Made by a program: the position numbers and the translations under genes
In this document: in pieces, positions 1,661-23,492 of the stretch
Numbering within the stretch: the stretch's first letter is position 1
Layout of the letters: each line of letters starts with the position of its first letter
Source: a virus
Virus record (IMG/VR): IMGVR_UViG_3300034121_000854
Location: 1 to 31,691 of that record
DNA: 31,691 bases
Strand: one strand, 5' to 3'
Notes under the pieces: generated by a model
Told to the model about the DNA's origin: nothing
What the model saw: the letters and a program-made list of their open reading frames with translations, nothing else
Databases searched by the model: none

Positions 1661-1690
1661 TGTGTCCATGACTGTCCCATAGTGTCCACG
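1661..1690. promoter_or_regulatory. Operator-like array: three TGTCC half-sites at 10-bp spacing
   Basis: TGTCCA (1663), TGTCCC (1673) and TGTCCA (1683) form three tandem half-sites with exactly 10-bp spacing, about 33 nt upstream of the ATG at 1630. The same motif and spacing recur at 7102-7117, 7388-7403, 7721-7736 and, more degenerate, 7323-7346. The spacing puts each site on the same helix face, as expected for cooperative binding of dimeric repressors such as ribbon-helix-helix proteins. No convincing -35/-10 pair was found here. Confidence 0.5.
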
Positions 1691-1921
1691 TCATGGCAAG
1701 AGTTTTTCTATGGGCAGATCAATATTTTCGGGGTCAGTCATCAGCAGTGCTTCGTGCTTGGCTGCGGACACGGCCGAGGTCAGCGCAGCGCAGGACTGCA
1801 GGACGCGCCGGAGCATCTTGCGTTGGCTGGTGAGGTCGGCGATCTGGGACTCAAGCGAGCGGATCTTGAGCGACTCAATGCCCGCCTCTGCGGCTGGCCC
1901 AAAGTTGATCTGGCCGATCAC
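1691..1921 (-). CDS. Small coiled-coil protein (76 aa), function unknown
   Basis: The protein is mostly helical and charged, with a likely coiled coil at about 17-50 (ESLKIRSLESQIADLTSQRK). The start is a GTG at 1921 that overlaps the upstream TGA as GTGA. It has AAGGAGG immediately upstream; an earlier GTG at 1960 has no ribosome-binding site, so the shorter form is preferred. No family is recognised. Position between small replication-operon genes suggests an early accessory protein. Confidence 0.6.
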   Translation of the reverse strand: MIGQINFGPAAEAGIESLKIRSLESQIADLTSQRKMLRRVLQSCAALTSAVSAAKHEALLMTDPENIDLPIEKLLP

Positions 1922-2106
1922 GCGGACCTCCTTCGCTTGGTCGTTGTTCCGTACAGCCACGCGGACTTGCGGAAGTTGGGGTCGGTGATGATGCCGCGGG
2001 ACGCCAAGAAGCGGTCGCAGGCGGCGTGGACCTCGAGGTGCCGGATGTATGGGCAGCCTGGGGTGCCGTCCTCAATGGTCTGCGTCTTGCCGTTCTTGGT
2101 CATCAT
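1918..2106 (-). CDS. Small early protein with AACDR motif (62 aa), paralogue of 1415-1630
   Basis: The start ATG at 2106 has an excellent AAAGGAGG Shine-Dalgarno at 8-nt spacing and overlaps the previous TGA as ATGA. The core CPYIRHLEVHAACDRFLASRG is shared in pattern with the 71-aa product at 1415-1630. The C-terminus is basic (TTKRRRSA). No known domain is recognised. The N-terminus contains GTPGCPY, and there are two cysteines in all, too few for a zinc finger alone. It is likely an early host-interaction or DNA-associated protein; that is a guess from position and charge. Confidence 0.7.
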   Translation of the reverse strand: MMTKNGKTQTIEDGTPGCPYIRHLEVHAACDRFLASRGIITDPNFRKSAWLYGTTTKRRRSA

Positions 2107-2276
2107 GGCTCTAGCTCCTCCTTTAGGCTGATCTTTTCCCACACGACTTGGAGGGCCATGAGGTTGGCGATGGTTTGGGTGAAGAGGTCATCGATGACCT
2201 CGGCGTTGATGGTCGCGCGGCCGTTCTCGCGAGTAACTGCGGGGGGCTTTTTCTTGGTGGGTGTTTTGGTTTTCAT
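2103..2276 (-). CDS. Small basic-N-terminus protein (57 aa), function unknown
   Basis: The ATG is at 2276 and the TGA stop overlaps the next gene as ATGA. The N-terminus is lysine-rich (MKTKTPTKKKPPA), followed by a helical segment (NAEVIDDLFTQTIANLMALQ) and an acidic end (SLKEELEP). The Shine-Dalgarno of the following gene is embedded in its last codons. No Shine-Dalgarno precedes its own start. Instead a TGTCCA half-site lies 4-9 nt upstream of the ATG, so it may begin a transcript. Confidence 0.55.
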   Translation of the reverse strand: MKTKTPTKKKPPAVTRENGRATINAEVIDDLFTQTIANLMALQVVWEKISLKEELEP

Positions 2277-2316
2277 ATGTGGACAAAGGTACAGTGGGGG
2301 TAGGACATCGGCTGTC

Positions 2317-2808
2317 TTAGGGGGTAAATGATTTTTGATGGGCGGTTAGGGATTCTGCGACTTCGTCCAAAAGGCTCCAGTTGCCCGGCTGGCGGTGGCG
2401 GTCAGGGTGATAGCGGACGGTCTGCCGGCTGCGGACATCCTCGAACGACCAAAAGACAAACTGGTTGCGGTCGGGCAGGTAGGCCGCAAGGATGTCGAAA
2501 TCGCCGGCAGCGTAGGGCCGCGTTGTGTCGCCGCCGCCGCGCTTGGCGTTTATGTGGTAGTCGCCGCGGTCGGTCAGCTTAGCCGTCTTGACCTGCACAG
2601 TCAGCCTGAGCGTGCCCCGGACCAGCACCCAGTCGGCGGTGTGGTCGTGGCCGAATGCCTTGAAGTTCTCCCAGTCGTAGACGATGCAGCCGGCGATGAA
2701 GAGAGCCTCGGTGAGGTCGCCGCGGCGGCAGTTTGAGAGCTTCCGGGCGGCCGCCTCGGAGACGGGCGCGTTGAGCCCCTCGCAGATGGCAAAGATTGCC
2801 TGGGTCAT
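2317..2808 (-). CDS. PD-(D/E)XK endonuclease-like protein
   Basis: The 163-residue protein resembles small PD-(D/E)XK nucleases of the PDDEXK_5 type. Glu34 lies in GDLTEALFIAGC, Asp59 in TADWVLV, and the catalytic-style VQVKTAK holds Gln72 and Lys74. The spacing Asp-x12-Q-x-K fits the E...D...QxK active site. A further acidic segment GDFDILAAYLPD (about 102-113) matches the conserved second half of the fold. It probably cuts or resolves DNA during replication or recombination. The start ATG has AAGGGAG upstream and overlaps the initiator stop as ATGA. A 40-nt gap follows before the next gene. Confidence 0.7.
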   Translation of the reverse strand: MTQAIFAICEGLNAPVSEAAARKLSNCRRGDLTEALFIAGCIVYDWENFKAFGHDHTADWVLVRGTLRLTVQVKTAKLTDRGDYHINAKRGGGDTTRPYAAGDFDILAAYLPDRNQFVFWSFEDVRSRQTVRYHPDRHRQPGNWSLLDEVAESLTAHQKSFTP

Positions 2809-3647
2809 GCGACTCCCTTCATCCGTTCTTCCTGCAGGGCTTCGAGCGCCATCATGCGCCGCTCAGCCTCGGACGGCTGCACCGGGCCGGTGCGCGGGAT
2901 GTGGAGGACTTTGGCGGTGTCCTTGGGGGTGTCTACAAACACGCCGCGCCAGCCGTGCTTCACGGACTTGCGGAGGGCTTCGACGGCGGCGGCTTCGTTG
3001 ACGGCGGCAAGATCGGCAACGATGCGCTGGGCTGCGGTCGGAGTAAGCGGGGCTTTGATCTCGCGGCGGTGTTGGGCGAATTCTGCCCAGGCATTGGCGA
3101 GGCCGGCACTGTGGGGCAGGGGAAGGTTGGCGGGATCGAACTTGGCTGGCTTCGGACGCGGAACAGCTACAGGGGAAGAAGAAGGTGGCGAAGGCAACGC
3201 AGTTGCCGGAGCTGGCGCGTCAGCGCTACGTTCTTCCTGTTCCTTATGTTTCTTTATGTTGGGGTCTAAATCTTGGACCACTTGGGTCCAGCGTTTAGAC
3301 CACTTGGGTCCAGCATTTAGACCACTTGGGTCTAAATCTTGGACCGGTCTAAGTTTTAGACCCATCTCGGAAACGCCGGGGATTTTCCAGATCGAAGCCT
3401 CGGCGCCGTCGCCGGCCAGCTTGCGGTGGCCTTTTTCGACCATGACTAGGTGGCCAGCATCGCGGAGTCGCTTGAGGCTGTTGGCGACCGTGGCGCGGCA
3501 CAGGCGGGTCTTCTGGCAGAGCTTGCCCCAGGAGCCGAAGCAGTTGCCGTCCTCGTCGGCGAAGTCAGCCAAGGCCAGCAGGACAAGCCGGTCGGAGCCC
3601 TCAACGGTGCTGACGTACCAGACGAAGTTGGTAGCGGCGACAGACAT
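2805..3647 (-). CDS. Winged-helix replication initiator-like protein
   Basis: The 280 residues fall into three parts. The N-terminal helix-turn-helix domain (about 1-95) includes SDRLVLLALADFADEDGNCF and TRLCRATVANSLKRLRDAGH, the pattern of HTH_36-type phage replication proteins. A linker follows that is rich in Pro and Ala. The C-terminal helical domain (about 175-280) contains KAPLTPTAAQRIVADL and resembles the distal part of phage O-like initiators. It likely binds the origin and recruits the DnaB-type helicase encoded downstream. The linker DNA carries 22-bp repeats (3276-3349) that resemble iterons. GGGAGG lies about 9 nt before the ATG, which overlaps the upstream stop as TGATG. Confidence 0.75.
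   Translation of the reverse strand: MSVAATNFVWYVSTVEGSDRLVLLALADFADEDGNCFGSWGKLCQKTRLCRATVANSLKRLRDAGHLVMVEKGHRKLAGDGAEASIWKIPGVSEMGLKLRPVQDLDPSGLNAGPKWSKRWTQVVQDLDPNIKKHKEQEERSADAPAPATALPSPPSSSPVAVPRPKPAKFDPANLPLPHSAGLANAWAEFAQHRREIKAPLTPTAAQRIVADLAAVNEAAAVEALRKSVKHGWRGVFVDTPKDTAKVLHIPRTGPVQPSEAERRMMALEALQEERMKGVA
3276..3349. repeat. 22-bp iteron-like repeats inside the initiator gene (candidate origin)
   Basis: GACCACTTGGGTC occurs at 3276-3288, 3298-3310 and 3320-3332, exactly 22 bp apart. A truncated palindrome GACCGGTC follows in register at 3342. Each unit is an imperfect palindrome (GACC-N5-GGTC) flanked by T-rich TTTAGA or TCTTGG. Because 22 is not a multiple of three, the copies are translated in three different frames (DPSG, GPKWS, WTQVV). 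The repetition is thus conserved as DNA rather than protein. Iterons within the O gene are the known layout of lambdoid origins. Confidence 0.7.
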
Positions 3648-3985
3648 CAGCTGCGCCTCCCGAATTTGTTCCGGTGGGCGCCCTTGGGGCCGTCGAACTC
3701 GAGGGTGCCGTCCGGGCGGACCCGAGCGAAGCGGACCTTGATCCGGTCGTTGGTGCGCCAGTCTTCCTTGGTCTGGACGTAGGTGACCGCGGGGCCATCG
3801 AACCCCGGGGGCAAAATGAAGAGCATCTTAGGGTGGGGGCAGGACTTCACTGAGACGGCCGCGGTGACCTCCTCGCCGATGGCGAAGGGGGCGCCGGCGG
3901 GCTTGGGGGCGGTCTCGGGCTCAGGGGTGGCTTCGGGTTGCCCTCTGAAGGTGTCGGTGGCTTTTTTGATTAGTTCGTTGATCAT
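3647..3985 (-). CDS. 112-residue early protein, function unknown
   Basis: A short helical N-terminus (MINELIKKATDTF) is followed by a Pro/Glu-rich linker (about 15-32). A beta-rich C-terminal domain comes next (GEEVTAAVSVKSCPHPKMLFILPPGFDG, then YVQTKEDWRTNDRIKVRFARVRPDGTLEF). The strands could form a small barrel, but no single-strand-binding signature is visible and I do not assign one. The ATG overlaps the previous TGA as ATGA; there is no Shine-Dalgarno, so translation is probably coupled. It lies directly upstream of the initiator, which suggests a replication role. Confidence 0.6.
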   Translation of the reverse strand: MINELIKKATDTFRGQPEATPEPETAPKPAGAPFAIGEEVTAAVSVKSCPHPKMLFILPPGFDGPAVTYVQTKEDWRTNDRIKVRFARVRPDGTLEFDGPKGAHRNKFGRRS

Positions 3986-4392
3986 GCTGCTAGTTGTTGG
4001 TGGGTTAATCGGGTAAGGCGCGCGCCAGGGGACTCCGCTGCGATCTGCAGATACTCTGCGACCTCGTCGATCATCGGGTCTCCGCTATGGTTGATGACGG
4101 TGGTGTGGCCGGTGAACGACCAGTGAATCCAAGGGTGCTCCGGCCATTTGTCGGGGTTGCACCTGCCGATCTCGATAAGGGCAATGCCTCCGTCCCAGCA
4201 GACGATGCCGTCAGGAATGCAGCGGTCCTTGCGGCCAGCCTTAATGTTGCCCATAAGGTAATGGGTGAAGGACTCGTCAACGCTGCCGCCCACCCGCATG
4301 TCTGGCCAGACACGCTGCAAAGCGTTGAGAACCCAAGGGATTAGGTTAATCATCGCTTCATGGAGCGGTCCGCCGTCTTTGCCGTAGCTCAT
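3982..4392 (-). CDS. PD-(D/E)XK-like fold protein, possibly inactive (136 aa)
   Basis: An in-frame upstream ATG at 4503 exists. The ATG at 4392 is preferred because the upstream part is low-complexity and a small ORF (4389-4481) ends there in an ATGA overlap. The protein contains CIPDGIVCWDGGIALIEIG at about 58-76. This recalls the PD...ExK motif of restriction-like nucleases, with Asp61 and Glu74. The lysine position is Gly76, followed by Arg77. It may be a nuclease fold that has lost or relocated its lysine, or an unrelated protein. A Trp-rich segment (KWPEHPWIHWSF) follows. Confidence 0.5.
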   Translation of the reverse strand: MSYGKDGGPLHEAMINLIPWVLNALQRVWPDMRVGGSVDESFTHYLMGNIKAGRKDRCIPDGIVCWDGGIALIEIGRCNPDKWPEHPWIHWSFTGHTTVINHSGDPMIDEVAEYLQIAAESPGARLTRLTHQQLAA

Positions 4393-4481
4393 GGGGTTGT
4401 TTTTATGAAAAATTTCGGGAGGCTGAATCGGTGGGGGGTATTGAAGAAATTGAGAATGGCGAGCCCCCACCCCCCCTCCAT
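4389..4481 (-). CDS. Possible 30-residue peptide
   Basis: An ATG at 4481 has AGGA 7 nt upstream. The frame runs 30 codons to a TGA that overlaps the next gene's ATG as ATGA, the junction style of this operon. The product would be basic and aromatic (AILNFFNTPHRFS, then FFIKTTP). The DNA is unusual, with a run of G on this strand just after the start. The alternative is that this stretch is the N-terminus of the following gene in another frame, or untranslated leader. Confidence 0.35.
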   Translation of the reverse strand: MEGGWGLAILNFFNTPHRFSLPKFFIKTTP

Positions 4482-4554
4482 AACTTAATCCTATAATGCT
4501 CATGACTAGTGGTCCTACTCTGTTGTCTCATTAACCGTCTCATCATGATGATGT

Positions 4555-5157
4555 TCATCTGTCAAATTCCTCTGTAGACACTGTCTCAATCTCAATAAGA
4601 GGCTCGGGCAATGCCGCTGCCTTTTGAGGCTCGGCCGTCAGGGCATCGACCGGTTGAAACGCCACATCCACGCTGTCCTCGCGCCTCTTCAAGCCGGCCA
4701 CGAAGTCCAGCCAGGCATCAGCCGCAGGCGCCATGACGTGCTCGACACGCTGGGTAGGTCCGCCGGATAACAGCTCCATCTTCTCCGTAGCCACCGCCGA
4801 CATGATGACAAGTCCGTGATCTTGCATATCCGGCACGCGATCAAGGAGTTCCGCAGTGCCAATAGCCGCCAGAGTGCGCCAATTATTCGCTGCCGTTTGC
4901 CGCGCCTTCTCAAGCATCTCCGGCTTGTTGCGAATTAAGGCGACGACCGTGTGAAATGACGTGTTAAACGCCTTGGCGATGCGCGTGGCGGGCATTCCGC
5001 CAACGTGCGCCTCCATGATCTGCATTGCCTTGCCCGGAGGTACTTCCATGCCGGTGTGGCCCTGGACGCTCACCAGCTCCTTGCCCTCTTCATCCTTAAC
5101 CATCTTCACGCGACGGCCGGCCTTCCTGGGTTTCGATTGTGTCTTGGGTCTTGCCAT
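4555..5157 (-). CDS. HTH DNA-binding protein, candidate small terminase subunit
   Basis: The 200 residues begin with a basic segment (MARPKTQSKPRKAGRRVK). At about 70-96 there is a helix-turn-helix (MPATRIAKAFNTSFHTVVALIRNKP). A helical middle follows (EKARQTAANNWRTLAAIGTAELL) and an acidic C-terminus (PEPLIEIETVSTEEFDR). The pattern of HTH, helical oligomerisation region and GGPTQRVEH motif resembles small terminase-like phage proteins. However, no large terminase is adjacent, and its place in the early operon is atypical, so a regulatory role is equally possible. The start at 5157 lies 1 nt after the HNH gene stop; an in-frame ATG further upstream overlaps that gene and is rejected. Confidence 0.6.
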   Translation of the reverse strand: MARPKTQSKPRKAGRRVKMVKDEEGKELVSVQGHTGMEVPPGKAMQIMEAHVGGMPATRIAKAFNTSFHTVVALIRNKPEMLEKARQTAANNWRTLAAIGTAELLDRVPDMQDHGLVIMSAVATEKMELLSGGPTQRVEHVMAPAADAWLDFVAGLKRREDSVDVAFQPVDALTAEPQKAAALPEPLIEIETVSTEEFDR

Positions 5158-5158
5158 A

Positions 5159-5698
5159 TCAGTGTCTTGCGAATTCGCCGTGGAGTTGCTCGCGAAGCTG
5201 CCGGGCGTGCGCCACAGCGTCTTCAAAACGCTTAAAGTATTTGCTGTGCATGACCCTCTTGCACTGGACTCTCACAACCCATCCATCCGATGGCTTGTGG
5301 TAGCAGACACCCTTTATTCCGCTGGTGTTGCTGCGTGACTTTCGAGCGTTTTGGACATTGTCCGAGTAGTTGCACTCGCGCAAATTCACGGCGCGATTGT
5401 CTGTCTTGTCGCCATTGATGTGGTCGCAGCAAGGATGCGGCCAGCGTCCATGGATGAGTGCAAAGGCAACGCGATGCGCATAAAACAAATGCCTATTGAA
5501 CACCACGCGCAAATATCCTAGAGCGCCCTTGCCGGTTATTATGTCGCCGACGCGCGTGTTTGACGCCCTTGGTTTCTTCCAACGCAAGACACCCGTTTGC
5601 GGGTCATAGTCAAAGTGCTCCTGCAGCTGTTCAATAGTTGGATGCCACTTGACCGCGGCGCCGCCGCCAAGCTCTGGAACGTGCGCGCAGTCCTTCAT
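5159..5698 (-). CDS. HNH homing endonuclease with AP2 DNA-binding domain
   Basis: This 179-residue free-standing homing endonuclease has an N-terminal HNH nuclease part. His75-Arg76 (YAHRVAFALIHGRWP) precedes the metal-binding core at 92-102 (DHINGDKTDNR), then NLRECNYSDNVQN. The C-terminal AP2/ERF domain (about 124-175) shows NTSGIKGVCYHKPSDGWVVR and YFKRFEDAVAHARQL. Such enzymes cut a specific site in related phages and copy their own gene there. GGGGAGG 7 nt before the ATG fixes the start, and the ATG overlaps the preceding TGA. It is probably a selfish insertion in the early operon. Confidence 0.9.
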   Translation of the reverse strand: MKDCAHVPELGGGAAVKWHPTIEQLQEHFDYDPQTGVLRWKKPRASNTRVGDIITGKGALGYLRVVFNRHLFYAHRVAFALIHGRWPHPCCDHINGDKTDNRAVNLRECNYSDNVQNARKSRSNTSGIKGVCYHKPSDGWVVRVQCKRVMHSKYFKRFEDAVAHARQLREQLHGEFARH

Positions 5699-5961
5699 CG
5701 TAAAATCCTCCCCTTGTGCCGACGCAGCAGCGGCCGCACCGGCTCAATGCCTTGGTCCGTCTCAAAGATGTTCAAGTGCGGCCCCTTGATAGCCCGGGCA
5801 ATCTTGGTCATGCCCATGTCCAGCAGGACGCCGGAGAGCCAAGGGTCGCGGCTCTGGACATGCCAGTAGTCGCCTACCTGCCACGCGCAGAGGGTAGTGG
5901 ACGTGCCGGGGATTGAACCCGGAGCGGGCTTGCAAGGTTTGCGCTGCTGCACGGTGGCCAC
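5695..5961 (-). CDS. Unknown basic protein (up to 88 aa), start uncertain
   Basis: The reading frame opens with GTG at 5961 and ends in a TGA that overlaps the HNH start as ATGA. The C-terminal part (WLSGVLLDMGMTKIARAIKG, then LNIFETDQGIEPVRPLLRRH) looks like a real small protein. The first 20-25 residues (CKPAPGSIPGTST) are a translation of the tRNA-like T-arm and acceptor sequence, so the true start may be later. No better start codon with a Shine-Dalgarno is seen. One possibility is that a tRNA-like element replaced the original 5' end. Confidence 0.45.
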   Translation of the reverse strand: MATVQQRKPCKPAPGSIPGTSTTLCAWQVGDYWHVQSRDPWLSGVLLDMGMTKIARAIKGPHLNIFETDQGIEPVRPLLRRHKGRILR

Positions 5962-5965
5962 GTCC
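5898..5965 (-). tRNA. Degenerate tRNA-like element (acceptor stem and T-arm only)
   Basis: Read on the minus strand, a 7-bp acceptor stem (GGACGTG with CACGTCC, plus A as discriminator) closes 5965-5898. It contains a perfect 5-bp T-arm, CCGGG-TTCAATC-CCCGG, with the canonical T-loop. The 36 nt between them are too short for normal D and anticodon arms, and no 5-bp stem around a 7-nt loop fits. A CTTGCAA stretch could be a former loop with TGC. No CCA is encoded. It is best seen as a decayed tRNA or a minimal tRNA-like structure. Confidence 0.4.
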
Positions 5966-5972
5966 GAATGAG

Positions 5973-6176
5973 TTAGAGCGAGTAGCAGGCAAACCTCTTG
6001 CCGTTCCTGCGCAGCGTCCGGCTACGCACCTTGATGCCTTCCTGCCGCATCTCCTCGATGCGAGCAGCCAGCCGCATACACCCAAAGCGGGTGAGGGCTG
6101 AGATTGCGGTCAGTCCGTGGCCGCGGCGAAGGTAACGCAATATGCGATTGGTCTGGTTCTTGGTGTTTGTGCTCAT
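5973..6176 (-). CDS. Small helix-turn-helix protein (HTH_39-like)
   Basis: The 67 residues form a compact winged-helix-like fold. NRILRYLRRGHGLTAISALT gives the first helices and turn. RFGCMRLAARIEEMRQEGIK matches the recognition region, and a basic beta end follows (SRTLRRNGKRFACY). This is the pattern of HTH_39 proteins found in many prophages, which help switch genes or modulate host functions. The ATG overlaps the previous TGA as ATGA. It has no Shine-Dalgarno, so coupling is likely. Confidence 0.75.
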   Translation of the reverse strand: MSTNTKNQTNRILRYLRRGHGLTAISALTRFGCMRLAARIEEMRQEGIKVRSRTLRRNGKRFACYSL

Positions 6177-6295
6177 GGTTTGCTTTTGGTGGTTTGGTTA
6201 AAGATGCGCCGGCAGACAGCCAGCAGTGCATCCACAGGGATGCATGGGCGTGTGCCGTGGTAGTTGCGCGCGGGGAGTTGGCTTGGGACGGTCAT
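6173..6295 (-). CDS. 40-residue microprotein, function unknown
   Basis: GGAGG lies 7 nt before ATG 6295. The start overlaps the upstream stop and the stop overlaps the downstream start, both as ATGA. The peptide is MTVPSQLPARNYHG, then TRPCIPVDALLAVCRRIF and a basic end (NQTTKSKP). The two cysteines and a central helix are all that can be described. Translation signals make it convincing despite its size. Confidence 0.65.
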   Translation of the reverse strand: MTVPSQLPARNYHGTRPCIPVDALLAVCRRIFNQTTKSKP

Positions 6296-6459
6296 GTGGT
6301 TGCCTCCGTCAGCTCGGCTTCCTCTTCGACCAAGCCTTCCAGCACCGGATCAAAGGGAATGCCAAGCCGGCCGCACGCATCCTCAGCGGCGTTCCAGATG
6401 TCAGCCTCGCGCTGCTCGTCGCAGCACCGGTCGTCCGGGTCTCCGAGTTCGCAACTCAT
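6292..6459 (-). CDS. Acidic 55-residue protein with four cysteines
   Basis: The start at 6459 is set by AAGGAGG 7 nt upstream and an ATGA overlap; an earlier in-frame ATG at 6480 lacks these. Cysteines in MSCELGDPDDRCCDEQ and EDACGRLG could bind a metal, but the spacing matches no family I know. The protein is strongly acidic (EEEAELTEATT at the end), as seen in DNA-mimic or anti-host proteins. That analogy is inference only. Confidence 0.6.
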   Translation of the reverse strand: MSCELGDPDDRCCDEQREADIWNAAEDACGRLGIPFDPVLEGLVEEEAELTEATT

Positions 6460-6647
6460 AGCCCAGCCTCCTTGGCGCATCCGTCTAGCGTGGCGTTGAC
6501 CTTGCGGCGTTCCTCCAGCTCGCGTTGAAATACCTTGAAGGCGCCTTCATCCAGCGCAGTCCACCAGCCGAGTGCCCAGACGAGGTCCAAGGTCATCTGG
6601 CTGGAGAACATGAGGGCCGACACGATGGGGTCCTTGTCGCAACTCAC
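6456..6647 (-). CDS. 63-residue early protein, function unknown
   Basis: It starts with GTG 6647, which overlaps the previous TGA as GTGA and has AAAGG about 9 nt upstream. A more upstream GTG (6665) is less likely. The hydrophobic middle (PIVSALMFSSQMTLDLVWALGWW) could be a membrane-associated helix. The second half is a charged helix (FKVFQRELEERRKVNATLDG). No family is recognised. The first residues (SCDKDP) echo those of the next gene (SCELGDP). Confidence 0.55.
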   Translation of the reverse strand: MSCDKDPIVSALMFSSQMTLDLVWALGWWTALDEGAFKVFQRELEERRKVNATLDGCAKEAGL

Positions 6648-6949
6648 TTGGCACCGCCTTTCCACTGGAAAACCGCCTTGTGCGCATCAGCCAGCGCATC
6701 GTACTTGTCTTGCGAGGTCTCGCCTAAGTGCGCCGTGTACAGGAGCTTCTTAACCAACTCCCTGGCCGCGTTGCGCTCCTTAGCCAGCCGGAGGAGCGGT
6801 GAGTTGAGGCCCGGCGCCTGCTCGGCAAGCTGCACCGCAATGTCTGCGGTCGCCTCGGCAAGCCACTTGGCATCGCCCAGGCATTCGGCGTCTCCGCACT
6901 CGCACAAAGCCTCCGGTGCGTAAGGTTGGTCGATGCGCAGGTCGATCAT
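6644..6949 (-). CDS. 101-residue early protein with CxC/C N-terminal cluster
   Basis: The start is supported by GGAGG 6 nt before ATG 6949 and an ATGA overlap. Cysteines lie at 16, 18 and 23 (LCECGDAECLGDAKW). The rest is helical (ERNAARELVKKLLYTAHLGE, DALADAHKAVFQW). The early cysteine-rich motif might hold a metal. The phage family is unknown to me and no function is assigned. Confidence 0.6.
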   Translation of the reverse strand: MIDLRIDQPYAPEALCECGDAECLGDAKWLAEATADIAVQLAEQAPGLNSPLLRLAKERNAARELVKKLLYTAHLGETSQDKYDALADAHKAVFQWKGGAK

Positions 6950-7071
6950 CGCCGTCCTCCGATCTTGTTGATGGCGTTTAGGGCAACGAAGCCGACGACG
7001 AGCAGGACAACGAGCGACACGAAGGTCGCGTCGGTGAGGTAGCTAAGAACTTCCAATGGTGTGGGTGTCAT
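6946..7071 (-). CDS. 41-residue single-pass membrane protein
   Basis: Too short to be found by usual cut-offs, it is framed by ATGA overlaps on both sides. After MTPTPLEVLSYLTDAT comes one transmembrane helix (FVSLVVLLVVGFVALNAI), then a basic end (NKIGGRR) consistent with a cytoplasmic C-terminus. There is no Shine-Dalgarno of its own. The GGAGG for the next gene sits in its last codons. It resembles small inner-membrane phage proteins such as exclusion factors, but nothing more can be said. Confidence 0.6.
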   Translation of the reverse strand: MTPTPLEVLSYLTDATFVSLVVLLVVGFVALNAINKIGGRR

Positions 7072-7307
7072 AGTTGTGGTGTGTTGGTTTGTTTTTCAGC
7101 CTGTCCACATGTGTCCACATGGAAGACATTGAAAGTGCGATCAGCAATGAAAGCATCAAGTGCCCGGACGCTGATCCGCGTGCCGCGCTGCGGGCCGACC
7201 TTGAACGCCGCCAACTCGCCGCTGGCGATGAAGCCGCGGAGCGTGGCGTTGCGAACACGCAGGGCTTGTGCGGCCTCGCTGACAGTCAGGGCCAAGTGGG
7301 CGTGCAT
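7068..7307 (-). CDS. Excisionase/HTH_17-type DNA-binding protein
   Basis: The 79 residues contain a MerR-like winged HTH at about 7-58. LTVSEAAQALRVRNATLRGF is the HTH, and GELAAFKVGPQRGTRISVRA is the wing and return. This is the pattern of HTH_17/excisionase-family proteins. It is the first gene of the leftward operon, divergent from the ribbon-helix-helix gene. It could act as an excisionase, or as the early-promoter control protein like Cox. No Shine-Dalgarno precedes ATG 7307, and degenerate operator sites (7323-7346) lie just upstream. The C-terminal codons contain two TGTCCA half-sites. Confidence 0.75.
   Translation of the reverse strand: MHAHLALTVSEAAQALRVRNATLRGFIASGELAAFKVGPQRGTRISVRALDAFIADRTFNVFHVDTCGQAEKQTNTPQL
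7102..7117. promoter_or_regulatory. Operator-like pair of TGTCCA half-sites
   Basis: TGTCCACATG is repeated exactly at 7102 and 7112, 10 bp apart, inside the 3' end of the HTH_17 gene. The pair is 31-46 nt upstream of the ATG at 7071. It matches the motif and spacing of the arrays at 1663-1688 and 7388-7403. It could control an internal promoter for the microprotein genes, though no -10 element is clear. Confidence 0.4.
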
Positions 7308-7322
7308 GCGTGGAGATTCGCA

Positions 7323-7346
7323 GACAGGTGTGGACAGCGCAAGACA
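7323..7346. promoter_or_regulatory. Degenerate operator-like triplet upstream of the leftward operon
   Basis: GACA (the complement of TGTC) lies at 7323, 7333 and 7343, exactly 10 bp apart. The central copy is extended to TGTGGACA, identical to the half-sites elsewhere. It lies 16-39 nt upstream of ATG 7307 in the divergent intergenic region, where the early leftward promoter is expected. Confidence 0.4.
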
Positions 7347-7379
7347 TATTTTTCACCACTTGTGGGGCCAAGACCCTAT

Positions 7380-7409
7380 TTGACAAATGTCCCGAAGTGT
7401 CCCTAAGTG
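7380..7409 (+). promoter_or_regulatory. Candidate promoter with overlapping operator for the RHH regulator
   Basis: A perfect -35 TTGACA (7380-7385) is followed, at 17-18 bp, by a weak -10 around 7403-7409 (CTAAGTG). Two TGTCCC half-sites (7388 and 7398, 10 bp apart) lie exactly between them. Transcription would start close to ATG 7416, giving a leaderless or nearly leaderless message, as for lambda cI from pRM. The layout suggests autorepression. Confidence 0.5.
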
Positions 7410-7415
7410 AATCGT

Positions 7416-7667
7416 ATGAAAACGAACAAACGACTGGTCGGCGCCCGGAGATCGGTGCACGCCAACCTAAGCAGCGGCAACCATGCGCGGCTCCTGCGCC
7501 ACGCCGAGGCCGCTAATCTCAGCGCGTCCAAGTACGCCGGCGTTGCCGTGGACTTCCTCTTGGACCTCGAGGAAGCATTCGGCGGCCCGCTGACTGAACA
7601 GTTCCGGCGCATGCTGATCAACTCGTCCAACAAAGCCCAGGTCGCCCTCAAGAAGTTGCTGGCGTAA
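7416..7667 (+). CDS. Ribbon-helix-helix regulator, candidate repressor (83 aa)
   Basis: The basic N-terminus (MKTNKRLVGARRS) leads into VHANLSSGNHARLLRHAEAA, a beta strand plus helix. NLSASKYAGVAVDFLLDLEE then gives the second helix with the S-x-S-x-Y turn typical of Arc/CopG-type ribbon-helix-helix proteins. The remaining C-terminal helices may mediate oligomerisation. ATG 7416 is preferred over GTG 7407, which falls in the promoter. It is the first plus-strand gene, divergent from the leftward operon, the classic place of a lysogeny or early repressor. Tandem TGTCC sites at helical spacing nearby suit such a protein. Confidence 0.65.
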   Translation: MKTNKRLVGARRSVHANLSSGNHARLLRHAEAANLSASKYAGVAVDFLLDLEEAFGGPLTEQFRRMLINSSNKAQVALKKLLA

Positions 7668-7690
7668 GTCGCTGGGGATTAGCCTTTAGA

Positions 7691-7719
7691 AACTATCTTC
7701 ACTTTGACTGAAAATAGTT
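7691..7719. repeat. AT-rich inverted repeat after the RHH gene
   Basis: AACTATCTTCA (7691-7701) pairs with TGAAAATAGTT (7709-7719) with one mismatch and a 7-nt loop. It starts 24 nt after the RHH stop and is directly followed by the TGTGGACA half-site. No T-run follows, so it is not a standard intrinsic terminator. It may be a weak terminator or part of a regulator site. Confidence 0.4.
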
Positions 7720-7720
7720 G

Positions 7721-7756
7721 TGGACAGATTGGGACATGGTTGATAGGTTGACGACA
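7721..7756. promoter_or_regulatory. Operator-like sites upstream of the plus-strand unknown genes
   Basis: TGGACA (7721-7726) and GGGACA (7731-7736) are the complement of TGTCCA/TGTCCC at 10-bp spacing. A further GACA is in register at 7753-7756. They lie 33-68 nt upstream of ATG 7789. A TTGACG (7748-7753) could be a -35 element, with TAAGAA (7773) as a poor -10 at 19-bp spacing. Confidence 0.4.
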
Positions 7757-7788: not shown

Positions 7789-8121
7789 ATGAACACACAC
7801 ACCACATCACAGGTCGCGCTGCCAGCCTACGTTGACATTGCCAACGAAAGCGTTGCCCTTCGCCGCACGGCGGACGGCTACCAGACACCGGACGGACGCT
7901 ACCAGTTCATCCGCACATCGTACGCCAGCAGCGGTCGCAACGGCTGCTGGAAAGACGCATGGCACGTTCGCCGCATCGATCCGGCCAGCGCGCTCGGCTA
8001 CGTCAAAGTCTGCACCTTCGAGGACCGCCTCAAGGACTGCCGGTTTGAAGTGTTCTATGACCTCGTCGGCGACCTGCCGGACGAGCAGCAGGACATCGTT
8101 GATCAACTTGTTGCCGCCTAA
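7789..8121 (+). CDS. Unknown 110-residue protein
   Basis: No family is recognised. The protein has a beta-rich middle (ESVALRRTADGYQTPDGRYQF), a segment with aromatic and Cys residues (GRNGCWKDAWHVRRID) and an acidic helical end (LPDEQQDIVDQLVAA). The start ATG has no Shine-Dalgarno. Its 11-nt leader ACACACCACA-type sequence is shared with the start region at 7071. It is the first of three plus-strand genes ending in a lipoprotein, so it may belong to a lysogenic-conversion unit. Confidence 0.6.
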   Translation: MNTHTTSQVALPAYVDIANESVALRRTADGYQTPDGRYQFIRTSYASSGRNGCWKDAWHVRRIDPASALGYVKVCTFEDRLKDCRFEVFYDLVGDLPDEQQDIVDQLVAA

Positions 8122-8798: not shown

Positions 8799-9893
8799 TT
8801 AATCCGGCAGCTCAACCCGCTGGTCCATTGTTGCGTAGTGCCGCTCAGTCGTTGAGCTAGTGGTGTGCCCAAGGAACCGCGACACGGTTGAGATCCGGCC
8901 GGTGGCGTTGAGCAGGTCGCTGCCCGCCTGCTTGCGTAGGCAGTAGAGCAAGTCCTTGCGCCCAGGCAGGAACTCCCGCAGCCAGTTGTTCATGATGCGC
9001 ATGCACCAGTTATGGCGCGTGTACGTTGTCCCTCCGGGCACCATGTAGTCATCAGCCTCCAGCAGCTCCGCGGCGACCGCATCGGGGAGTACAATCTGCC
9101 GCTGCCGCCGCGATCCGGTCTTGAGCGTGAAGCCCTCGTCCGGCCGCTGCACAAGTAAGAGCTCATGCTTGTCGCCCCGCCTTTCAATCCAGCCCTTCCG
9201 GCAGGCCGCAATCTCGGTCGGCGTCATGCCGCAGCGTCGCGCCAGCAGGAACGCCCTGCGAATCCCGCCGCCGGCCAGCCTGCTCTTCTCCTCTAGGGTT
9301 GCCAGCACGTCCGCGGTGAGGGGAACGAAGGCGTCGAGGTTCGCTCGGATGCCGGTCTTGGCGGTCGCATCGCGGAACTCGGCGAGGTCCGGCAAGTCAA
9401 AGCCCTCCCAGTCATTCGCCCGGCAAAAGACTGCGCGGCCCATGGCGAGGTTGGTCTTTTGCGAGGCCGGCGCCAGCTGCGTCTTGCGCAGGAAGTCGGA
9501 GACCAGCTTGCGGTTGAGGCGGGTGAGGGGAAGCGCGCGGAGTTTCTCTCGGTCAGTTACGCCCAGGCCGTCCCGCAGGACAACCAGCAGTGCGTTGACG
9601 TTGTCCTTGCGGGAATCTACTTTGCTTGTCTGCAAGTAATGATCGCACGCCGCACCAATCGATTCGGAGGAAGTCTTCCGGGCATGATCCTTGAGCGCAG
9701 CCAGTCCCGCCGTGGCGGTCTGCTCGAGGATGGCCTTGGCCTTGGCGCGCGCCATAGCGATGTCCTCGGTGGCCAGACTGAGACGCTGCCGGGTCAGCGA
9801 GGAGGGATGCCGGAATTGCAGCTGCCAGAACGGAGACTTGCCGACCTTGTAGAGTGTTCCGGTCAGTCCGCGGTGCTTGATGGTGGTGTCCAT
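8799..9893 (-). CDS. int: Tyrosine recombinase (phage integrase)
   Basis: The 364-residue integrase catalyses site-specific recombination between phage and host attachment sites. The N-terminal arm-binding region (about 1-75) is followed by a SAM-like core-binding domain (about 76-175) and a catalytic domain (about 185-364). Catalytic residues are Arg219/220 (LLARRCGMTPTE), a likely Lys258 (TLKTG), Arg320 in YCLRK, His343 in RFLGH and the nucleophile Tyr353 in ERHYA. The usual HxxR histidine is Tyr317 here. I chose ATG 9893, which has AAGGAT 7 nt upstream; an in-frame start at 9944 lies inside the arm-site repeats. The gene runs away from the attachment site at 10055-10093. Confidence 0.93.
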   Translation of the reverse strand: MDTTIKHRGLTGTLYKVGKSPFWQLQFRHPSSLTRQRLSLATEDIAMARAKAKAILEQTATAGLAALKDHARKTSSESIGAACDHYLQTSKVDSRKDNVNALLVVLRDGLGVTDREKLRALPLTRLNRKLVSDFLRKTQLAPASQKTNLAMGRAVFCRANDWEGFDLPDLAEFRDATAKTGIRANLDAFVPLTADVLATLEEKSRLAGGGIRRAFLLARRCGMTPTEIAACRKGWIERRGDKHELLLVQRPDEGFTLKTGSRRQRQIVLPDAVAAELLEADDYMVPGGTTYTRHNWCMRIMNNWLREFLPGRKDLLYCLRKQAGSDLLNATGRISTVSRFLGHTTSSTTERHYATMDQRVELPD

Positions 9894-9919
9894 GGCCGCA
9901 TCCTTACGGCCCGCGGAAT

Positions 9920-9987
9920 GGTCTGTCAACAGCAGTCTGACCAAAGTCTGTCAGAGTCTGACCACAGTCTGTCCGATAGTCTGGCAG
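9920..9987. repeat. Cluster of AGTCTG repeats, candidate integrase arm-type sites
   Basis: AGTCTG occurs at 9934, 9945, 9955, 9966 and 9978, with a sixth GTCTG at 9921. Spacings of 10-14 bp are close to a helical turn. Two extended versions alternate: AGTCTGACC (9934, 9955) and AGTCTGTC (9945, 9966). They lie between the integrase start and the tRNA-Thr fragment, where arm-type integrase binding sites of an attP normally lie. Some copies contain TGTCC or TGACC, so binding by the TGTCC regulator to repress int is an alternative. Confidence 0.6.
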
Positions 9988-10039
9988 AAACAATCGATCT
10001 TACGGACCTTCTCGGTCGCTTACGGAACAGTGTCTACAG

Positions 10040-10045
10040 TAGAAT
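10040..10045 (+). promoter_or_regulatory. -10-like element just upstream of the tRNA-Thr fragment
   Basis: TAGAAT, one mismatch from TATAAT, ends 9 nt before the first base of the tRNA fragment, the distance expected for a tRNA promoter. A clear -35 is missing: TTACGG at 10020 is the best, with a short 14-bp spacing. TTACGGA also occurs at 10000. Confidence 0.35.
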
Positions 10046-10054
10046 CTGGGGAAC

Positions 10055-10093
10055 GCCGGCATAGCTCAGCTGGTAGAGCACCTGATTTGTAAT
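10055..10093 (+). other. attP: attP candidate: 5' half of tRNA-Thr(TGT)
   Basis: This is the 5' half of a tRNA-Thr: acceptor GCCGGCA, TA, D-stem GCTC/GAGC with loop AGCTGGTA, anticodon 5' stem CCTGA and loop TTTGTAA with anticodon TGT (10088-10090). After one more T the sequence departs from any tRNA; no 3' anticodon stem, T-arm or acceptor partner is present in the next 300 nt. With the integrase and arm-type repeats next to it, this is most simply the phage attachment core, with strand exchange in the anticodon stem-loop. Genes on both sides are phage genes, so it is an attP and not a prophage-host junction. Confidence 0.7.
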
Positions 10094-10161
10094 AAGCTGC
10101 TGTAGCCAGTATCCATGCGGGTCTTCGGGGAGTGTGGCTGACGGTGTGGCAAACATGACGA

Positions 10162-17468: not shown

Positions 17469-17753
17469 TTATTTAATTCCTGCCGCCGCTCTTGCCTCAA
17501 GGCACAGCGTTGATCCCGGCACAAACGCGCGGCAGGCATTCGGTCGGTTGTTGTAAATTGAGCAGCCCACCGCGCAGCCGACCTTGCCGGTCAGCGCCAC
17601 GCATCTGCTGTTGGTTGTCTTCATTAGTGGGTAGTCATCGCGTAGCATCCATTCGGGGATGCCGACAGCGTCAGATCGGTCTCGTCGTAAGATTGGCCAG
17701 GACCACTTGTGAGAGCAGCATGCCCCACACCGTTGACAGTCGAAGTCTCCCAC
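17469..17753 (-). CDS. YkgJ-type cysteine-cluster protein (metal or Fe-S binding)
   Basis: The frame contains the YkgJ-family signature CQRCGACC near its start. CVALTGKVGCAVGCSIYNNR, then PNACRAFVPGSTLC and LEAR follow. Conserved cysteines plus the IYxxRPxxCR motif make the family assignment firm; members bind zinc or an iron-sulfur cluster. The frame is open from 17933, but upstream residues are a shadow of the PAPS-reductase gene. The first plausible start is GTG 17753 (94 residues), without a good Shine-Dalgarno. It overlaps the reductase by 130 bp in the -1 frame, so a fusion by -1 frameshifting is an alternative. Confidence 0.75.
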   Translation of the reverse strand: MGDFDCQRCGACCSHKWSWPILRRDRSDAVGIPEWMLRDDYPLMKTTNSRCVALTGKVGCAVGCSIYNNRPNACRAFVPGSTLCLEARAAAGIK

Positions 17754-18577
17754 GTCGGGCGGAACCCCTGCGCCTCGCTCGTTAGGTCCACATAGGGCGC
17801 CAGATGAGATATGTTGTTCGTCTCGCATGAGTTCTTGGGGCAATAGACGGTGTCGCCGAGGTGGCGGTTCACGCAGTTCCAGCAGACCGGGTAGTAGTCC
17901 GAGTTGTTCGCCTTGTCCGTCTTGTGCTGCCACACGCCGTCCGCCTTCTCGTAGCGGGTGTCGTCGTTGGGAACGCCGGCCGCCTCAAGGTAAGCCCACA
18001 CGTCGGCATCGCTCCAGTGGCGCATGGGATAGTATTGTGTCGGCACGCCGGCCTGCACCAAGGCGTCCTGGGCGAGCGGCACTTGGCCCTTGATCAAGTC
18101 CACGTCGGCCGACTTCTGGCCGTGGAATGCGGCATCCCAAGGAAACTCAAACGTCCCAGTCGGCCGGCGCAGGGCGTCCAGACCGCAGAGGTAGCGACCG
18201 CTGGCCAGCTCTTCGGGCTTGGGCTCCTCAGTGCCGAGGCAGAGGGCCAAGGCTTTCTGGCCAAACTGGTAGAGCTTCACAAAGTCAAAGCGCGGGGCGC
18301 CGGTCTCGATGTCAAAGCCGTCCGTCAGCATGTAGTCCAGCGGAGCGTAGTCATACATTTCCAGGTCCCACGCATTGGCCAGCCGGTCGCTGAAGGCGTA
18401 GCGACTGCGGAACCGGGGCTCGCGCCACTGGATCACCGGCAGCTTGGCTCCGACCTCGTAGCGGATGAGGTGCAGCATCGCGGTGCTGTCCTTGCCGCCA
18501 GACCAGAGGACAACCGGATTCACGCTGGCATCCAGCCAACGCTCCACCTGCCGACAAGTCTTTTTGATTAGCTCCAT
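17624..18577 (-). CDS. PAPS reductase-like (PP-loop) enzyme
   Basis: The 317-residue protein belongs to the PAPS reductase/ATP-pyrophosphatase superfamily. The PP-loop LWSGGKDSTAMLHL is at 24-37, binding ATP or PAPS. YYPMRHWSDADVWAYLE (about 182-198) is the family's C-terminal substrate motif. A Cys4 cluster at 232, 235, 246 and 251 (CWNCVNRHLG, YCPKNSC) may bind zinc or Fe-S. Roles for phage homologues include sulfur assimilation or sulfur-based DNA modification (DndC-like). It is unusual among virion genes. Its last 43 residues overlap the YkgJ-type gene in another frame, and its start overlaps the previous stop. Confidence 0.85.
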   Translation of the reverse strand: MELIKKTCRQVERWLDASVNPVVLWSGGKDSTAMLHLIRYEVGAKLPVIQWREPRFRSRYAFSDRLANAWDLEMYDYAPLDYMLTDGFDIETGAPRFDFVKLYQFGQKALALCLGTEEPKPEELASGRYLCGLDALRRPTGTFEFPWDAAFHGQKSADVDLIKGQVPLAQDALVQAGVPTQYYPMRHWSDADVWAYLEAAGVPNDDTRYEKADGVWQHKTDKANNSDYYPVCWNCVNRHLGDTVYCPKNSCETNNISHLAPYVDLTSEAQGFRPTWETSTVNGVGHAALTSGPGQSYDETDLTLSASPNGCYAMTTH

Positions 18578-22905: not shown

Positions 22906-23492
22906 TAGTTCAGCGCCGCCTTTAGTTTGCTGCGAAATCTTGCCGCGTCACCGGGGGAAATGTCCGTCTTCCTGCTCGGCGAAACCTGCTGGTGCGTCAC
23001 AACCATCGACATCGGGATGCCCCACTTGCGCAGGCGCGGGGCCAGATACTCAATGGCGCTGGCCATGGCATCGTCGCCGAGCGGGTAGTCGTAGGTGTTG
23101 CCCTCCCAGGCGAGCCCGAGGGACCAAGAGTTAAGGTCGCCGCGCCCCATCCAGTTGCTTTTGCCAGCATGCCAAGCGCGCTCGCTGTCGTTGCAGAACA
23201 CGGTGCGGCGGCCGTCGCGGGCGATGAGAACGTGGTAGGACACTTTAGATGCCGGGTTGGCGATCCACTCGCAGCCCCCGCGATAGCTGCCGTCGCTGTG
23301 ATGTAGCACTACCGCCTCCGGCCGAATCGCGTTGCTGCTCTTGTTCGGCGTGTGGACCCTGCGCTCGTCGTAGGTGGTCTTGGGCGGCTCGACGGTGAAG
23401 CTCGGACTGGATACGGAGACAGAGTTCGGCGAGGCCGGCGCTAGGGAAGCGGCGGACTTGCTGCCAAATAGTCTCTTGATCCACGTCCACAT
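22905..23492 (-). CDS. N-acetylmuramoyl-L-alanine amidase endolysin
   Basis: The 195-residue endolysin has an Amidase_2 (T7 lysozyme-like) domain from about 45. It cuts the amide bond between muramic acid and the stem peptide. Zinc ligands are likely His64 (VVLHHSDGSY), His167 (MVVTHQQV) and Asp177 (RKTDISPGD). Tyr86 (SYHVLIARDG) and Lys175 correspond to the catalytic pair. SERAWHAGKSNW (103-114) is another family block. The N-terminal 40 residues are a Ser/Pro-rich linker after MWTWIKRLFG; they might help membrane association, but no clear signal-anchor is present. The gene follows two holin-like genes and a small lipoprotein. Confidence 0.92.
   Translation of the reverse strand: MWTWIKRLFGSKSAASLAPASPNSVSVSSPSFTVEPPKTTYDERRVHTPNKSSNAIRPEAVVLHHSDGSYRGGCEWIANPASKVSYHVLIARDGRRTVFCNDSERAWHAGKSNWMGRGDLNSWSLGLAWEGNTYDYPLGDDAMASAIEYLAPRLRKWGIPMSMVVTHQQVSPSRKTDISPGDAARFRSKLKAALN

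Follow-up and report, generated by a model that had tools for sequence, protein, structure and literature searches.

We analysed a tandem-repeat system in a virus genome fragment of 31,691 bases (IMG/VR record IMGVR_UViG_3300034121_000854; hereafter the window, whose numbering is used for all positions). Units of TGTCC, set exactly 10 bp apart, lie in groups of two or three at five promoters, and the product of a small gene among them (7416-7667, + strand, 83 amino acids) is very probably the regulator that reads these units. Across related phages, the dispersed operator set has changed its word jointly from clade to clade, with positions and 10-bp phase kept. We consider it likely that the regulator, a predicted ribbon-helix-helix (RHH) protein, controls its own gene as well as repressing early and replication genes, its most likely role being that of lysogeny repressor.

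A pattern search of both strands of the whole window found five exact TGTCC-N5-TGTCC pairs at four places: 1663, 1673, 7102-7116 and 7388-7402 on the + strand and 7722-7736 on the - strand, with the pairs at 1663 and 1673 forming one triplet (1663-1687). In 1,000 dinucleotide-preserving shuffles the mean was 0.054 pairs and the maximum 2, and the backward-read pattern, our control, gave no pair in the window. Chance is ruled out as the source of these pairs. A degenerate triplet with one mismatch per pair lies at 7322-7346 (- strand), and the rest of the window holds just two single-mismatch pairs, at 7005 and 28939. All exact pairs and the degenerate triplet are confined to the early/regulatory region. 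The prospect raised in a preliminary description of this DNA, that pairs might be equally common inside late genes, did not materialise. The arrays that it reported, with exact 10-bp spacing, were borne out at coordinates correct to within one base. It had also counted a single TGTGGACA at 2280 as a site of the regulon; this copy is present in a near-identical relative (G002), is absent from three others (G001, G003 and G004) and is at chance level, and it was therefore dropped.

Each operator was then placed relative to its genes. The pair GTCCCGAAGT-GTCCCTAAGT (7388-7403, +) sits between a -35-like TTGACA (7380-7385, +), 36 nt before the regulator ATG, and that ATG; it is found in all four clade-A relatives, in one of them with a mismatch, and the TTGACA is kept across clades, reading TTGACT in clade F. 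The degenerate triplet (7322-7346, -) lies over the promoter of a leftward gene for an HTH_17 protein (7068-7307, -), with TTGCGC at 7342-7337, 35 nt before the HTH_17 ATG, and relatives carry their clade's word there. A pair at 7102-7117 (+) precedes a leftward small gene starting at 7071 and has counterparts in clades B and C. The earlier placement of this site at a gene start holds insofar as it lies about 31 nt upstream of that start, but it falls within the HTH_17 frame, at its 3' end, and not in a gap. A pair at 7721-7737 (-) separates the regulator gene from a rightward gene (7789-8121, +; gene reading and synteny), which varies between relatives; at the place of this pair other clades have up to four 10-bp units. 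The distal triplet (1663-1688, +) is about 32 nt before a small gene (ATG at 1630) that precedes dnaB, and matching triplets occur in relatives. The regulator's own promoter and several others thus each carry at least two phased direct repeats.

About 57 other viral contigs have a homologue of the 7416-7667 product. Four close relatives, with regulators 92-100% identical, keep all five clusters in place (distal triplet, 7102 pair, leftward triplet, and the pairs before and after the regulator gene), a few with one mismatch. Contigs whose regulators are 47-50% identical lack the exact TGTCC pair and have TTGGC/GCCAA units at the matching places, exactly 10 bp apart; an alignment search added contigs with 51-61% regulator identity and TTGGC-type units, mostly GTNGGCAT. 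A (C)GGAC core is found in the L172/L173 clade, reached via the HTH_17 gene, and in two clades recovered with a broader alignment (L212-L226). The position homologous to the 7388 pair is occupied in other clades by GTTGGC-type or GCGGAC-type units. Aligned in the register of the TTGACA-like hexamer, the upstream units are GTCCCGAAGT-GTCCCTAAGT for the window, GTTGGCATCC-GTTGGAGCGT-GTTGGC for L103 and GCGGACTAGA-GCGGACGTTT-GCGGAC for L222.

The triplet of the dnaB operon, about 6 kb from the regulator, carries the clade's word too. Nearly every contig of clades B and C that covers the region has a triplet with its clade's own word about 270-290 bases before dnaB, and a matching distal triplet was found in G005, G008, L101, L108-L110, L112-L114, L119, L120, L123, L131 and L132, among others. 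In G005 it reads GTAGGCATATGTTGGCAAATGTAGGCATGG and is followed by a recognisably related small gene. The distal site in clade D is a pair, and L117 fails the strict pattern.

We also measured periodicity with no word assumed, in about 165 bases before the regulator gene, taking control windows from the same loci. The strongest self-match fell at lag 10 in 33 of 36 distinct loci, which share kinship and hence are not independent tests, compared with 4% of control windows; the words differ by clade and the phase is the same. Periodicity was weaker downstream of the regulator gene, where lags 10 and 30 were each best in 8 loci, and no lag-10 peak was found in the regulator coding sequence. DNA and protein searches of annotated phage genomes gave no match, and a search for the host among GTDB genomes, made with the regulator and the portal protein, also came up empty. 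One search match, L267, was rejected as a relative of the family.

Two phage proteins are encoded amid the sites, the HTH_17 protein and the 7416-7667 product, and the word follows the latter. Among our loci, which were found via searches with these two proteins, so that phages having the sites but neither protein would escape detection, the 7416-7667 family is present throughout. The residues on its predicted DNA-facing strand sort with the words: H and N (V-H-A-N) go with TGTCC, F or Y and N (V-[FY]-A-N) with TTGGC, and T and S (V-T-[IV]-S) with (C)GGAC. RHH proteins read DNA via such a strand; that of AmrZ touches the half-site with three alternating residues (PMC3325190). One contig with a diverged C-terminal part of the regulator retains F and N plus the TTGGC word. 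An association of the word with a strand S/G residue was considered and dropped: TTGGC occurs with S, with G and with A, and it is H, F/Y and T that separate the words. The view that one phage protein acts on several phased sites is well supported, in that conserved operators switch word jointly, the word tracks the 7416-7667 family and a swap of the HTH_17 protein has no effect on it.

At the regulator and leftward promoters the start codon comes 35-38 nt after a TTGnnn hexamer (36 nt for 7416 and 35 nt for 7307), and the stretch from hexamer to start is filled by units; in clade C the start codon of the regulator gene is farther downstream of the hexamer. Because the ATG follows the first T of TTGACA by 36 nt, the transcript of the regulator gene is probably leaderless or nearly so. 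Hardly any room would be left for a leader, which would account for the missing Shine-Dalgarno sequences.

Upstream of the integrase gene, at about 9990-10100 (-), is a sequence resembling the 5' half of a TGT-anticodon (Thr-like) tRNA, GCCGGCATAGCTCAGCTGGTAGAGCACCTGATTTGTAAT. It is a probable attP core, and the tRNA could point to the host. An integrase together with a tRNA-like attP indicates that the phages are probably temperate. Searches for the HTH_3 (PF01381) and Peptidase_S24 (PF00717) domains found neither in the window nor in six relatives, with control genomes positive. The repressor of a CI/Cro-type system would be of the HTH_3 type and would often carry an S24 peptidase domain as well, and the absence of both supports the earlier statement that the switch is not of the cI/Cro type.

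Computation shows where the sites lie, how they are phased, that they are conserved and that they covary with the protein; from the sequences we infer the fold, binding, repression and a role in lysogeny as follows, with the covariation as indirect support for site-specific binding and repression. Dimers of the 7416-7667 product would read a core of 4-6 bp within each 10-bp unit and line up next to one another along a single face of the DNA. They would act at five promoters: that of the regulator gene, that of the divergent leftward early operon (HTH_17), those of the genes at 7071 and 7789, and that of the operon leading to dnaB. Each has two or three units, and relatives have as many as four downstream of the regulator gene. 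Dimers placed every 10 bp would cover the promoter and block RNA polymerase, so that the protein would regulate its own gene and repress early genes and those of replication. In a temperate phage that lacks a CI-type protein, it would then most likely serve as the lysogeny (immunity) repressor, and a joint change of the core that is read and of all operators between clades would put the phages in different specificity groups. Of the phage repressor switch proposed at the outset, the single phage-encoded reader is supported, and the repressor and lysogeny-switch role is our interpretation. It is possible, if somewhat short of probable, that the loci represent a widespread temperate family with a non-CI, RHH-type lysogeny repressor, leaderless promoters and heteroimmune groups that arose by joint switching of strand and operators.

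The RHH assignment comes from the pattern S-V-H-A-N-L ... A-N-L-S-A-S-K-Y ... A-V-D-F (strand RRSVHANLS) and from weak in-register matches, and several results weigh against it or against the role built upon it. No significant match to the regulator was found in Pfam, PHROG, NCBIfam or PDB. The library matches were weak (HicB at 0.054 and FitA-like RHH at 0.05), both of them RHH families, the HicB match spanning residues 7-45 of the clade-D protein, where the strand and helices are expected; a PDB sequence search match to a tRNA synthetase was spurious. In an hhalign comparison with six hand-entered RHH sequences, the strand lined up in register, as did the two helices, but the probability was only 10% (P 0.003). 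AlphaFold monomer models from two alignments had low confidence (mean pLDDT 62-64), with helices where expected and the strand not formed, and a Foldseek search with the first model returned noise alone. An RHH domain spans about 45 residues, with alternating hydrophobic residues on an N-terminal strand and two helices after it, and it pairs into an intertwined dimer whose two strands enter the major groove. The strand of RHH proteins forms only in the dimer, and low-confidence monomer models are therefore expected. At the regulator promoter, the TTGACA that was said to flank the 7388 pair on one side is in place, but the -10 said to flank it on the other is not: no convincing -10 was recognised downstream. 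The cores of clades A and D are reverse-complementary although the strand residues differ, and the two clades have HTH_17 proteins with 66% identity. Over the history of the family the word has changed only a few times, and other linked protein differences could be responsible for these changes. Finally, a Cro-like role in early shut-off fits the sites as well as lysogeny maintenance does.

This last alternative, in which the RHH-type protein would use the same sites for a Cro-like early-to-late shut-off with autoregulation, and lysogeny would be kept otherwise or not at all, is the most serious one, although we judge it unlikely. Either role is compatible with a regulator that controls its own gene along with early and replication genes. 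The integrase and tRNA-like attP, however, indicate a temperate life, and searches for HTH_3 and S24 domains gave no other repressor candidate; because no other repressor was found, we favour lysogeny maintenance. It is improbable that the HTH_17 product, rather than the regulator, binds the phased repeats as a combined repressor and excisionase, as P2 Cox or lambda Xis do on phased direct repeats. Its gene is adjacent to the sites, its domain has weak excisionase similarity, and between clades A and C the window-type HTH_17, too, has diverged, to 54-55% identity. In many clade-B and half of the clade-C contigs, however, it is swapped for another HTH protein, with about 41% identity across the HTH region, and the operator words are unchanged. 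Because its replacement leaves the word as it was, HTH_17 is probably a target of regulation and not the reader; because clades A and D share the GGAC/TGTCC core and 66%-identical HTH_17 proteins, this explanation is weakened and not dead.

A host-encoded regulator is still less probable as the reader of these sites, given that, across phages of one lineage, the words change in step with a phage protein whose gene lies among the sites. We give least credence of all to the repeats being replication iterons, a partition site or DnaA boxes instead of operators. Such elements are suggested by TTGTCCACA, which resembles high-GC DnaA boxes, by copies that read TGTCCACA, by the presence of dnaB among the targets and by RHH ParB proteins such as omega of pSM19035, which bind tandem repeats (PMC9499535). 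DnaA boxes or iterons would have a conserved TTATNCACA or TTGTCCACA and cluster at an origin, but here the word is wholly different at corresponding places in other clades, and two or three units lie at each of five promoters in place of a single array. A distinct iteron array with another word is present inside the O-like gene, near 3263-3362, and no ParA turned up among the genes read.

Around the regulator, the leftward genes comprise dnaB (8-1396, -; a DnaB-like replicative helicase by Pfam DnaB_C, 5.4e-82, and synteny, in the operon behind the distal triplet), a PD-(D/E)XK gene, the O-like replication gene, small genes and HTH_17. The HTH_17 protein (Pfam HTH_17, 8.8e-10; weak excisionase PHROGs) is excisionase-like and, as the first leftward gene, holds a Cro/Cox-like position. 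Its gene comes in two types, MHAHLALTV... and MTNTPQLLTIRDAA..., which closely related phages exchange for one another at one position (for example L101 7608-7796). The array at 3263-3362, of the TTAGACCACTTGGGTCTAA type with GGGTC at 22-bp spacing, lies inside the O-like gene (2805-3647) and is a probable origin of replication. On the rightward side, the regulator gene is followed by the variable gene at 7789, a lipoprotein-like gene and the integrase gene (8799-9944), itself leftward. Some relatives have an extra pair or triplet of their clade's operator word about 80-120 bases from the integrase start (G002 23063-23082, G008 6004-6023, L120 10168-10187, L099 2967-2986 and L188 10728-10757; in clade D the GTCC core only), and int may belong to the regulon in those phages. 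A second short-repeat array, with a spacing of about 10-11 bp and a word unlike the operators (GGTCAGACT, CTGCCACA or CTGCCAAA, depending on clade), lies just upstream of int at about 9900-9990 in the window and at the matching place in G002, G003, G004, G008, L099, L120 and L188; it perhaps represents integrase arm sites or the operators of another regulator. Elsewhere, 5159-5698 is a putative HNH homing endonuclease-like gene, found in only G001 and G003 (55-57% identity) of the six relatives searched, and the late region holds a PAPS reductase/ATP-PPase-like gene with an SGGKDS motif (17624-18577).

Because searches of Pfam, PHROGs, NCBIfam and PDB return nothing significant for the regulator, annotation would miss this family as a repressor. 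Its natural pairs of regulator and operator set, with equal geometry and different words, offer a direct test of DNA choice by RHH proteins and could show how a dispersed regulon shifts specificity without breaking. They may also provide a means of telling immunity groups apart among uncultured temperate phages without a CI-type gene. If true, the joint switching of strand and operators would amount to a natural specificity code for RHH proteins.

Regulators of this kind are already known (SSV1 F55, Arc/Mnt and omega). We found no description, in the libraries or in limited open-access literature, of the window family, of an exact 10-bp unit in integrase-bearing phages or of a genome-wide word switch. 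Arc and Mnt of P22 are phage-encoded RHH repressors, Mnt being similar in length to the regulator and having a C-terminal helical part; their operators are inverted half-sites, they mainly control the antirepressor region, and neither has a sequence match to the 7416-7667 product. MetJ also places RHH dimers side by side on tandem met boxes, but these are 8-bp boxes, and MetJ is a host metabolic repressor with a corepressor. The omega protein of pSM19035 regulates several promoters. Like the predicted regulator, it is an RHH protein on contiguous tandem repeats, reading heptads (PMC9499535), but its 7-bp units have mixed orientation, and it is also a partition protein with a ParA partner, of which none was noticed among the window genes. 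Of the systems described, F55 from SSV1, a virus of archaea, comes closest. This RHH regulator of lysogeny binds two tandem repeats at immediate-early promoters and at its own promoter, and is described as CI-like in its maintenance of lysogeny (PMC5569661). Both would be small RHH proteins acting on tandem repeats at early promoters and their own. In the archaeal virus the repeat consensus is ATAGATAGAGT and the sites overlap the BRE and transcription start site, whereas the window family belongs to integrase-bearing phages and combines a -35-like hexamer, exact 10-bp units and clade-wise switching of the word.

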